Source of the DNA: Ancylobacter moscoviensis
Lineage (GTDB): Bacteria > Pseudomonadota > Alphaproteobacteria > Rhizobiales > Xanthobacteraceae
Assembly: GCF_007559435.1 (NCBI RefSeq)
Contig: NZ_VMBP01000001.1
Span: 1,179,406-1,243,405, forward strand
Direction: 5' to 3'
Length of the DNA stretch: 64,000 bases
Made by a program: the position numbers and the translations under genes. The notes under the pieces are model-generated. The model was not told the origin of the DNA. It saw nothing but the letters and a program-made list of their open reading frames with translations, and searched no databases. Shown here one piece after another: positions 41,954 to 45,082 of the stretch (position 1 is its first letter; each line of letters starts with the position of its first letter).

Positions 41954-42859
41954 TCATGCCGCGCCCCCCTGGTCGGGCCGCTCGGTGCCGGTATTGGTCA
42001 TCACCGTGTAGAAGACCCAGCACAGGGCGAGCACGATGAGATTATAGACCAGCGACATCGCCGCCGCCTTGCCGAGATCGAACTGGCCGAGGGCGAGCTT
42101 CACGAGGTCGATGGAAAGGAAGGTCGTGGCGTTGCCGGGGCCGCCGCCGGTCAGCACGAAGGGCTCGGTGTAGATCATGAAGCTGTCCATGAAGCGTAGC
42201 AGCACCGCGATCAGCAGCACGCGCTTCATCTTCGGCAGCTGGATGGTGGTGAAGATCGCCCAGCGCGAGGCACCGTCGATGCGCGCCGCCTGGTAATAGG
42301 CGTCGGGGATCGACTTGAGGCCGGCATAGCACAGCAGCGCCACCAGGCTGGTCCAGTGCCACACGTCCATCACCACGATGGTGATCCACGCGGCGATGGG
42401 ATCGCCCGTGTAGTTGTAGGGAATGCCGAGCGCGTTCAGCCCCCAGCCGACGAGGCCGATATCGGCGCGCGCGAAGACCTGCCAGATGGTGCCGACGACG
42501 TTCCACGGGATCAGCAGCGGCAGCGCCATGATCACCAGCGTGGCGGCGACCTTCCAGCCCTCGCGCGGCATGGACAGCGCGACGAGGATGCCGAGCGGCA
42601 CCTCGATGGCGAGGATGATCGCGGAGAACAGCAGGTTGCGCCACAGCGCGTCGAAGAAGCGCCCGCCGAGCTCGGTCGAGGGGTCGAGCAGTTCCTGGAA
42701 CCAGCCCAGCCCGTTCCAGAAGAACTGGTTGTTGCCGAAGGTGTCCTGCACCGAATAGTTCACCACCGTCATGATCGGCAGGATGGCCGAGAAGGCGACG
42801 ATGAGGAAAACCGGCGCGACCAGCAGCCAGGCGCGGTTGTTGAGCGGCTTTTCCATCAC
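41954..42859 (-). CDS. glpP: Glycerol ABC importer permease GlpP
   Basis: The 301-residue MalF-like permease has a first helix WLLVAPVFLIVAFSAILPI and the coupling loop YQAARIDGASRWAIFTTIQLP. The product begins MMEKPLNNRAW and its ATG overlaps the glpT stop (ATGA), so the ATPase and permease are translationally coupled. It pairs with GlpQ. Confidence 0.92.
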   Translation of the reverse strand: MMEKPLNNRAWLLVAPVFLIVAFSAILPIMTVVNYSVQDTFGNNQFFWNGLGWFQELLDPSTELGGRFFDALWRNLLFSAIILAIEVPLGILVALSMPREGWKVAATLVIMALPLLIPWNVVGTIWQVFARADIGLVGWGLNALGIPYNYTGDPIAAWITIVVMDVWHWTSLVALLCYAGLKSIPDAYYQAARIDGASRWAIFTTIQLPKMKRVLLIAVLLRFMDSFMIYTEPFVLTGGGPGNATTFLSIDLVKLALGQFDLGKAAAMSLVYNLIVLALCWVFYTVMTNTGTERPDQGGAA

Positions 42860-43959
42860 GCCCCTCCCTCGCGGTTTGCCGTTTCCCCTTCGACGAGGAC
42901 GCCGCCGGCATAGATGTGGACGTGCCGGGGATCGAGCCGCAGGCCGGCCGTGTCGCCGTCGAGCGCCAGCGCGTCCGGCACCATGGCGGCGGCCGGGTGG
43001 CCGGCGATCTCGATGCGGGCGATGCGGGCGCGGCCGATGTCGTCGATGCGCCGCACCTTCACCGGCAGTCCGGTGCCGGCGCCCGCCAGCGTGGCGAATT
43101 CCGGCCGCACGCCGAGTTCGATCCGCTCGCCCGCCGGCAGGGAGGGGTAGGCGCGCACCAGCTCGATGGCGACGTCGCCGATATGCGCCGTGCGGCCCTC
43201 GACCCTCGCCGGCAGCACGTTCATGCCCGGCGAGCCGATGAAATGGCCGACGAAGGTGTGCGCCGGGCGCTCGAACAGCTCCTCCGGTGTGCCCGTCTGC
43301 ACCACCGCGCCGTCATGCATGACGACGACCGTGTCGGCGAAGGTCAGCGCCTCGGTCTGGTCGTGGGTGACGTAGATCATGGTGAGGTCGAGCGCGCGGT
43401 GCAGCTCCTTCAGCGTGGAGCGCAGCTGCCATTTCAGGTGTGGGTCGATGACGGTCAGCGGCTCGTCGAACAGGATGGCGTTGACGTCCGAGCGCACGAG
43501 GCCGCGCCCGAGCGAGATCTTCTGCTTGGCGTCGGCGGTGAGGTTGGAGGCCTTGCGGTCGAGCACCGCCGACAGGTCGAGCCGATGGGCGATCTCCTCG
43601 ACGCGCCGGGCGATGGCCTCGCGCGGCAGGTGCCGGTTCTTCAGCGGGAAGGCGAGGTTCTCGCGCACGCTCATCGTGTCGTAGACGACCGGGAACTGGA
43701 ACACCTGCGCGATGTTGCGGGCCTCGGTCGGCAGGTGGGTCACGTCGCGGTCGTTGAACAGGATGCGGCCCTTGGTCGGGATGACGAGGCCGGAGATGAT
43801 GTTGAGCAGGGTGGTCTTGCCGCAGCCGGAGGGGCCGAGCAGCGCGTAGGCGCCACCCTGCCGCCAGACGTGGTTGATCTCCTTCAGCGCGTAGTCCTGC
43901 GGGCCGCGCGGGTCGGGCCGGTAGGCGTGGGCGAGGCCGTCGAGGGTGATGCTGGCCAT
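42856..43959 (-). CDS. glpT: Glycerol ABC importer ATPase GlpT (degenerate signature motif)
   Basis: The 367-residue ATPase has a good Walker A (GPSGCGKT, residues 42-49), Q-loop (VFQFPVVYDTM), Walker B with catalytic glutamate (AILFDEP, E166) and switch histidine H199 in IYVTHDQTEA. The ABC signature is replaced by LTADAKQK (residues 140-147) instead of LSGGQQQR, and the D-loop reads TVID. Its partner GlpS has the opposite defect, so the pair is predicted to hold one working and one degenerate ATP site. A MalK-type regulatory domain makes up the C-terminus. Confidence 0.93.
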   Translation of the reverse strand: MASITLDGLAHAYRPDPRGPQDYALKEINHVWRQGGAYALLGPSGCGKTTLLNIISGLVIPTKGRILFNDRDVTHLPTEARNIAQVFQFPVVYDTMSVRENLAFPLKNRHLPREAIARRVEEIAHRLDLSAVLDRKASNLTADAKQKISLGRGLVRSDVNAILFDEPLTVIDPHLKWQLRSTLKELHRALDLTMIYVTHDQTEALTFADTVVVMHDGAVVQTGTPEELFERPAHTFVGHFIGSPGMNVLPARVEGRTAHIGDVAIELVRAYPSLPAGERIELGVRPEFATLAGAGTGLPVKVRRIDDIGRARIARIEIAGHPAAAMVPDALALDGDTAGLRLDPRHVHIYAGGVLVEGETANREGGA

Positions 43960-43972
43960 TGTCCGCTCCTCC

Positions 43973-45082
43973 TCAGGCCGCCGCGTCGAACGCGCGCCCG
44001 GCCCGCTGGCCGTCGGCGTCGAACAACAGGATGTGGCGGGGATCGATCATCACCTCGACCGCGGCGCCCGGCTCCAGCCGTCGCACGCCGGAGACCAGCG
44101 CGGTGAGGCGTTCCTCGCCCATGTCCATGTGCAGGAAGCTCTCCGAACCCGTGACCTCCGTCACCGCGACGGACGCGCCGAGGCGGATGAGCCCGTCATG
44201 CGCCGGAACCTCCTCGGCGAGCGGTATCTCGCCCACCCCGAGATGATGCGCCCGCACGCCCATGGTGTAGGCGCCGTCCGGCACGCTGGCGAAGATGCCG
44301 GTGGCCGGCAGCACCGTGCCGCCCTTCAGCAGAACCGTGTGGCTCGACTTGGTGATGCGCAGCGCGTTGAGCGGAGGGTCGGAGAAGACCTTCGCCGTGG
44401 CGAGATCGGCCGGGCGGCGATAGACCTGCGCCGTCGGGCCGAACTGCGTCAGCGCGCCTTCCATCAGCGTCGCGGTATTGCCGCCGAGCAGCAGCGCCTC
44501 GGTCGGCTCGGTCGTGGCGTAGACGAAGACGGCGCCGGTGGAGGCGAAGATGCGCGGCAGCTCCTCGCGCAGTTCCTCGCGCAGCTTGTAGTCGAGATTG
44601 GCCAGCGGCTCGTCGAGCAGCACGAGGTCGGCGCGCTTCACCAGCGCGCGGGCGATGGCGGTGCGCTGCTGCTGGCCGCCGGAAAGCGCCAGCGGCGTGC
44701 GCTGGAGATAGGGGTCGAGCTTCAGCAGCCTGGCGGCCTCGGTCACGCGCGCCTCGATCTCCGTCCGCGACAGGCCCTGCACGCGCAGGGGAGAGGCGAT
44801 GTTCTCGTAGACCGTCAGCGCGGGGTAGTTGATGAACTGCTGGTAGACCATGGCGACGCTGCGCTTCTTCACCGTCACGCCGGTGACGTCGCGCCCATCG
44901 ACGAGGATGCGCCCGGAGGTCGGCGCGTCGAGGCCGGCCATCAGCCGCATCAGGCTGGTCTTGCCGGCCAGCGTGGCGCCGAGCAGCACGTTCAGGCTGC
45001 CGCGCTCCAGCCGCAGCGAGACATCGCGGATATAGGGCACGCCGGCGACGGAGCGGCTGACATGGTCGAGTTCGAGGCTCAT
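43973..45082 (-). CDS. glpS: Glycerol ABC importer ATPase GlpS (switch histidine replaced)
   Basis: The 369-residue ATPase has Walker A GATLAGKT (35-42), Q-loop VYQQFINYP, intact signature LSGGQQQR (133-140) and Walker B LVLLDEP with E158. At the H-loop it reads [11 protein letters not shown], so the usual VTHDQ is changed and Thr191 stands where the catalytic switch histidine belongs. The start ATG overlaps the glpD stop (TGATG). Together with GlpT it should form an asymmetric heterodimer energising GlpP/GlpQ. The C-terminal half is MalK-like. Confidence 0.93.

Follow-up and report, generated by a model that had tools for sequence, protein, structure and literature searches.

The window analysed here is a stretch of 64,000 nucleotides from Ancylobacter moscoviensis (assembly GCF_007559435.1, contig NZ_VMBP01000001.1, positions 1,179,406 to 1,243,405 of the forward strand), and it carries a putative glycerol importer whose two adjoining ATP-binding cassette (ABC) ATPase genes, glpS and glpT, encode subunits with complementary changes in their nucleotide-binding motifs. 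Genes are named by the GlpSTPQUV scheme and lie in the order glpD, glpS, glpT, glpP, glpQ, glpU, glpV, glpK, with the following window coordinates:

45079 to 46629, minus strand: glpD, glycerol-3-phosphate dehydrogenase.
43973 to 45082, minus strand: glpS, MalK-like ATPase of 369 amino acids with a canonical LSGGQQQR signature, without the switch histidine and without the A-loop aromatic residue; Pfam PF00005 and TOBE.
42856 to 43959, minus strand: glpT, MalK-like ATPase of 367 amino acids with intact Walker A, Walker B and histidine and a non-canonical signature and D-loop; Pfam PF00005, OB_MalK and TOBE_2.
41954 to 42859, minus strand: glpP, CUT1-type permease; PF00528.
40978 to 41787, minus strand: glpQ, CUT1-type permease; PF00528.
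40659 to 40964, minus strand: glpU, small membrane protein DUF2160, the family marker; PF09928.
38838 to 40601, minus strand: glpV, assigned as a substrate-binding protein from its position and length, with the gene order as in Rhizobium.
37072 to 38625, minus strand: glpK, glycerol kinase.

This set has the composition of a GlpSTPQUV system: two adjoining ATPases, two permeases, a DUF2160 protein and a binding protein, beside glpD and glpK. The binding protein is assigned from its position and a weak match to the annotated binding protein of a Streptomyces plasmid importer (29% identity over 190 residues); comparison with Pfam and NCBIfam gave nothing at E <= 0.001. Passages of one report describe the GlpSTPQUV operon of Rhizobium leguminosarum VF39 as a glycerol importer and a Cupriavidus homologue as dispensable for growth on glycerol (PMC7912956). 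By homology, glycerol would also be the substrate of the window importer. The glpD and glpS genes overlap by four bases (45079-45082), as do glpT and glpP (42856-42859), provided that glpP starts at the GTG at 42859, and these overlaps suggest translational coupling.

In an ABC sandwich dimer, each ATP site is formed by the Walker motifs and H-loop of one subunit together with the signature motif of the other. By this general model, site 1 denotes the composite site with GlpT in cis and GlpS in trans, and site 2 the composite site with GlpS in cis and GlpT in trans. The motifs of the pair are distributed over the two sites as follows:

43921 to 43923, minus strand: GlpT A-loop Tyr13; site 1.
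43813 to 43836, minus strand: GlpT Walker A GPSGCGKT, residues 42-49; site 1.
43363 to 43365, minus strand: GlpT switch histidine H199, within VTHDQTEA; site 1.
44663 to 44686, minus strand: GlpS signature LSGGQQQR, residues 133-140, canonical; part of site 1.
45047 to 45049, minus strand: GlpS A-loop position Val12, aromatic residue lost; site 2.
44957 to 44980, minus strand: GlpS Walker A GATLAGKT, residues 35-42, lysine and threonine retained and the middle changed; site 2.
44504 to 44521, minus strand: GlpS H-loop YATTEP, residues 188-193, T191 replacing the histidine; site 2.
43519 to 43542, minus strand: GlpT signature LTADAKQK, residues 140-147, altered; part of site 2.
43441 to 43455, minus strand: GlpT D-loop TVIDP, residues 169-173, altered; site 2.

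In translation, the Walker B and D-loop stretch reads FDEPLTVIDP in GlpT (residues 164-173) and LDEPLANLD in GlpS (residues 156-164), and the GlpS H-loop stretch reads YATTEPTEA. The original prediction for this locus, made from the DNA alone, had reported LTADAKQK and H199 in GlpT and LSGGQQQR with a threonine at the histidine position in GlpS, and translation confirmed each of these at the right coordinates on the minus strand. Beyond these, three more lesions fall in site 2, namely GlpS Val12 (as against GlpT Tyr13), the GlpS Walker A GATLAGKT (as against GPSGCGKT/S) and the GlpT D-loop TVID (as against S/G-N/A-L-D). Site 2 still has the Walker A Gly-Lys-Thr, the Q-loop glutamine and the Walker B aspartate and glutamate of GlpS, and the Walker A lysine is kept in both subunits (GlpS Lys41 and GlpT Lys48).

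Both composite sites were compared with related ATPases at 22 nucleotide-contacting positions per site (13 in cis and 9 in trans), a list drawn from general knowledge of ABC structures. A deviation was defined as a residue that never occurs in a background of 47 related MalK-like ATPases, of which the window's own genome supplied 22 and a phylum sample 25; they were selected among the best 30 of 129 matches and 30 loci taken from a longer list. The background omitted GlpS and GlpT themselves (L202, L225, L250, L251), duplicates (L238, L258), one locus with no row above threshold (L257) and the more distant L226-L231. Relative to this background, on whose choice the counts depend, the window pair has no deviation among the 22 positions of site 1 and 13 among the 22 of site 2. 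GlpS contributes the A-loop valine, four Walker A positions and the threonine in place of histidine, and GlpT contributes four signature and three D-loop positions. Under the composite assignment of the general ABC model, the altered signature therefore sits opposite the altered Walker and H-loop motifs, as in ABC proteins with one degenerate nucleotide site.

All 47 background ATPases carry both xSGG(Q/E) and the histidine, and when each row was judged by the other 46, 41 rows showed no deviation and six showed one. Among the omitted distant sequences, five deviate at 0-2 of 22 positions, and the long fused ABC protein L231 deviates at 7 of 22 with no histidine in the aligned column, where the alignment is doubtful. 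These comparisons support an asymmetry peculiar to GlpS/GlpT among the ATPases surveyed, with none of the 47 background sequences lacking SGG or the histidine.

The pair has the domain layout of the MalK class, an ABC domain followed by a C-terminal OB/TOBE region. GlpT scores 33.4 bits against OB_MalK (cut-off 27) and 21.2 against TOBE_2 (cut-off 21), and GlpS scores 25.1 against TOBE (cut-off 22.3) and has no OB_MalK match. A predicted structure of GlpS as a lone chain, with a mean predicted local distance difference test (pLDDT) score of 87, aligns to full-length MalK chains and shows the fold only. In the homodimeric MalK-class proteins of the CUT1 type (MalK, UgpC, SugC and AlgS), one gene supplies two canonical sites. 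Here, in contrast, two diverged subunits yield one canonical and one altered site, and GlpS/GlpT is a variant inside the MalK class, not a standard member.

Orthologous pairs were collected from two overlapping sets of loci. DUF2160 marks 85 of 398 phylum genomes, counting that of the window, and the second set comprised the best 80 of 595 loci, from named genomes via the GlpQ permease. After L144 and L160 were dropped, the latter because its 8-kb stretch showed no ATPase, 162 loci besides the window (84 + 78) had an adjoining glpS-glpT pair, which is every locus where both genes are readable. With the window included, 159 of 163 pairs are distinct by their last 330 residues and 151 of 163 are left at a 3% distance filter; among these 151, divergence averages 44% (maximum 61%) for GlpS and 40% (maximum 53%) for GlpT. 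The codon pattern of the GlpT D-loop marks the same 85 genomes as DUF2160. At L144, a GlpS-GlpT fusion was considered as a natural dimer template and rejected; its 916-codon frame runs through glpS, glpT and part of a permease and looks like an assembly error, since the record is a metagenome-assembled genome and the translation contains ambiguous (X) residues. Six further loci (L086-L091) hold second, weaker DUF2160-like proteins (29.9-42.4 bits) beside importers in which a single ATPase, of canonical type, passed the threshold. They serve as a contrast only, and the DUF2160-like subunit may not be confined to the glycerol system.

The altered residues, their pairing and their conservation are plain in these alignments, and the changes are concentrated in one composite site. 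In GlpS, LSGGQQQR is present in 162 of 162 pairs, the histidine position holds threonine in 157 and serine in five, and the A-loop position is valine in 154 and aromatic (phenylalanine) in one. In GlpT, the switch histidine is present in all 162, signature position 4 (Asp143) is aspartate in 161 and alanine in one, signature position 6 (Lys145) is lysine and the D-loop is TVIDP in every pair, and the A-loop residue is tyrosine in 161 and phenylalanine in one. The Walker B Asp-Glu is kept in 162 of 162 sequences of GlpS and GlpT alike, and GlpS Lys41 is invariant in the pair alignments. Entropy is zero at GlpT K145, Q146 and TVIDP and at GlpS Y188-T190; in the GlpT signature, positions 2 and 5 vary, as do positions 2, 4 and 5 of the GlpS Walker A. 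Across these pairs, site 1 shows no deviation in 118, one in 43 and two in one, mostly a valine at the first counted D-loop position of GlpS (36 of the 44 deviating pairs), and site 2 shows nine deviations in two pairs, 10 in 25, 11 in 82, 12 in 38 and 13 in 15.

Another set, consisting of the query and the 120 best listed matches for each protein (one GlpT match, P0123, is the query's own near-copy), shows GlpS (L/M)SGGQQQR with Thr191-Glu192 and GlpT Asp143, Lys145-Gln146-Lys147 and His199 in 121 of 121 sequences. The complementary defects are thus not a chance feature of one genome, given normal motifs in every background ATPase and the same pattern throughout both orthologue sets. Orthologues with a restored histidine in GlpS or LSGGQ in GlpT, which the original prediction had named, if common, as one of two grounds for refuting it, number 0 of 162. 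It had also proposed a test of co-variation between LTADAK and the threonine, which is uninformative because both are nearly fixed. GlpS and GlpT distances correlate at 0.94 over the 151 de-duplicated pairs, a value that shared species history alone can yield and to which no weight was given. Serine replaces the GlpS threonine at L081, L060, L064, L063 and L068, and exactly these five loci carry LSPDNKQK in GlpT, a GlpS Walker A of GxTG(S/A)GKT and a Q-loop of HQFF. This joint change fits a coupled site 2, but it may represent a single event.

Conservation of this kind bears on the possibility of relaxed decay, in which site 2 would be a bystander whose motifs eroded once one site sufficed. 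Decay would fit any one-site model, and GlpS Walker A position 2 and GlpT signature position 5 do vary, but most of the altered residues are invariant or nearly so across loci that differ by up to the maxima given above, and they recur in Streptomyces. Relaxed decay is already disfavoured by these alignments, and we consider it very improbable. That the altered residues are held nearly invariant instead suggests a maintained second role for site 2.

The pairing of the motifs points to a specific arrangement. A GlpS homodimer would lack the histidine at both sites and a GlpT homodimer would lack LSGGQ at both, so that a canonical site arises only in the GlpS:GlpT combination, once per dimer. 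This is the strongest argument from sequence for an obligate heterodimer with a single hydrolysing site, and we consider it likely that GlpS and GlpT form such a dimer, with the other site conserved and non-catalytic. In this model, in which the heterodimer, the nucleotide occupancy, the identity of the hydrolysing site and the stoichiometry are all predictions, the dimer would lie beneath the GlpP/GlpQ permeases. Site 1, composed of the GlpT A-loop, Walker A and B, Q-loop and H199 with the LSGGQ and D-loop of GlpS, would be canonical and hydrolyse ATP in each transport cycle. Site 2, composed of the GlpS Walker A and B with the L-T-A-D-x-K-Q and TVIDP of GlpT, would be old, conserved and non-catalytic. 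It probably still binds nucleotide through GlpS K41, T42, D157 and E158 and would be unable to make the normal gamma-phosphate sandwich, with no LSGG, Asp143 at the second signature glycine, no switch histidine and no A-loop aromatic residue. Its most likely role would be that of a structural or regulatory half that holds the dimer together or sets its pace, with perhaps one ATP spent per glycerol.

The original prediction of one live and one dead ATP site therefore stands in part, in that a canonical site is paired with one that carries multiple changes, but the word dead does not suit a site whose GlpS half keeps its Walker A Lys-Thr, Q-loop glutamine, Walker B aspartate and catalytic glutamate and several of whose altered residues are nearly invariant. 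With the Walker A lysine and Walker B Asp-Glu kept in both subunits as well, we prefer to call site 2 specialised. In CFTR, the second signature glycine is the position of the mutation G551D, and with an aspartate there site 2 is unlikely to close normally on ATP.

That same aspartate admits another reading, in which site 2 never sandwiches ATP and GlpT Asp143, as a phosphate mimic supplied by the protein itself, pairs with GlpS Lys41 to form a permanently closed hinge. The near-constancy of Asp143 in GlpT (and its presence in 102 of the 120 best listed distant relatives), the invariance of Lys41 and the loss of the adenine-stacking A-loop residue from GlpS are all in keeping with a mimic. Alanine occupies the position in 18 of those 120 relatives and in one of the 162 pairs, however, so that the aspartate is not essential everywhere, and GlpS retains its glutamine, aspartate and glutamate as though nucleotide still matters. 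We regard the phosphate mimic as unlikely.

The retained GlpS glutamate also raises the possibility that both sites hydrolyse ATP, site 2 by unusual chemistry involving GlpS Glu158 and Thr191 with GlpT Lys145/Gln146, which would make the asymmetry kinetic and not on/off. Such chemistry would account for a Walker B glutamate in every GlpS and for a Lys145-Gln146 that is invariant or nearly so, but the histidine, LSGG and A-loop aromatic residue are all lost together. In ABCC1, according to passages of PMC7756269, mutation of the H-loop histidine in the degenerate site barely affects transport, and a change of the histidine in the canonical site alone almost abolishes it, glutamine and asparagine excepted. 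Hydrolysis at both sites is, in our assessment, distinctly unlikely.

Several points weigh against the preferred heterodimer with one hydrolysing site. The dimer and the assignment of motifs to sites are derived from the general ABC model. The difference between site 1 and site 2 in the window pair (Fisher p 2e-5) was calculated with positions treated as independent, which they are not. The window's 13 deviations are the top of the 9-13 range, in part owing to a Walker A that departs from GPTLSGKT, the commoner form, and some site-2 positions (GlpS Walker A 2 and 5, GlpT signature 2 and 5) are variable, with background-type residues in other orthologues. As GlpS keeps the catalytic glutamate, unlike many degenerate exporter sites (PMC7756269), ATP could still be hydrolysed slowly at site 2. 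For MalK itself, mutating a single subunit is reported to cause severe impairment (Davidson and Sharma 1997), and GlpST would contrast with this best-studied relative.

Comparison with known systems places the pair between several types of transporter. Like the degenerate-site exporters TM287/288, TAP1/2, CFTR and Pdr5, as covered in passages of PMC7756269, GlpST has one composite site with an altered trans signature and H-loop histidine; unlike them, it is an importer with separate ATPase subunits, a retained catalytic glutamate and altered residues that are largely invariant. The same passages state that in human degenerate sites the trans signature is altered in all, the Walker B glutamate often and the H-loop sometimes (PMC7756269); replacement of that glutamate, a common but not universal trait, does not occur in any of the 162 GlpS sequences. 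RbsA and NupO, according to excerpts from PMC11466899, are likewise importers with one degenerate ATP site, but they belong to another importer type, with both ATPase domains fused in one chain and the second Walker A lysine lost, whereas GlpS and GlpT are encoded by separate genes and keep Lys41 and Lys48. E. coli DppABCDF, in the part of PMC12136057 that treats it, resembles GlpST as an importer with two different ATPase subunits and belongs to another importer family. The original prediction had called the asymmetry unusual for an importer, and this holds for the MalK class within the literature searched, degenerate-site importers elsewhere being represented by RbsA and NupO (PMC11466899, in part).

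The asymmetry is common to all sampled members of the GlpS and GlpT clades. R. johnstonii 3841 (pRL9) and R. leguminosarum UPM791, the two Rhizobium strains covered by the motif comparison, share it with the window together with the gene set, gene order and flanking glpD and glpK. Plasmid copies in Comamonas, Azospirillum B510, Photobacterium and Sphaerotilus agree with it as well. Outside Pseudomonadota, the full pair was checked in one Streptomyces plasmid importer (L264, NZ_CP108071.1 55957-70811), and other distant relatives were compared on the GlpT side only. In L264 a GlpS/GlpT-like pair follows the permeases; its GlpT is 51% identical over 78% of the query and has Tyr, LTADDKQL, TVIDP and His, and its GlpS-like protein has an A-loop Val, LSGGQQQR and Thr. 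No DUF2160 or glp gene is annotated in this 14.9-kb stretch. Neighbouring genes there encode an alcohol dehydrogenase and a putative quinol monooxygenase. Among the 120 best listed relatives of the Streptomyces GlpT, which come from sources including Streptomyces, Nonomuraea, Candidatus Limnocylindrales and Candidatus Sulfomarinibacteraceae, the histidine is present in 120 and LSGGQ in none; signature position 4 is aspartate in 102 and alanine in 18, and position 6 is lysine in 119 and arginine in one.

In a phylogenetic tree, GlpS and GlpT each form one clade with 100/100 support. Holding the two together gave p-AU 0.445, and 48% of 200 bootstrap trees placed the background on one side, so that the tree is compatible with a single duplication inside the system as the origin of the two subunits and also with other origins.

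ABC importers have long posed the question of how many ATP are used per substrate and whether both sites have to fire, and it has usually been approached with engineered mutants. In 85 of the 398 phylum genomes sampled, the canonical and altered sites are encoded by separable genes, so that each site can be mutated and the stoichiometry measured without an artificial heterodimer. A single ATP per small three-carbon substrate would be an energy saving worth selecting. One-canonical-site arrangements are known in exporters and a few fused importers, and no description of such asymmetry in the MalK class with separate subunits was found in the open-licence papers searched. We tentatively propose, as a possibility with less than even chances, that a widespread MalK-class lineage has swapped one ATP site for a conserved, protein-encoded, non-catalytic half, in which L-T-A-D-x-K-Q and TVIDP are set against a GlpS site without histidine or A-loop aromatic, and so takes up glycerol for a single ATP, and that other importers, among them the Streptomyces one with no glycerol genes annotated, run on the same half-site engine.

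Finally, a search for RNA families found none in 36000-48000. On the glpD side, where the locus was compared with the Rhizobium records, a DeoR/GlpR gene precedes glpD in Rhizobium, whereas in the window the next gene before glpD is a LysR-type regulator (46843-48528, minus strand). The opposite strand carries short-chain and aldehyde dehydrogenase genes at 47902-50121.

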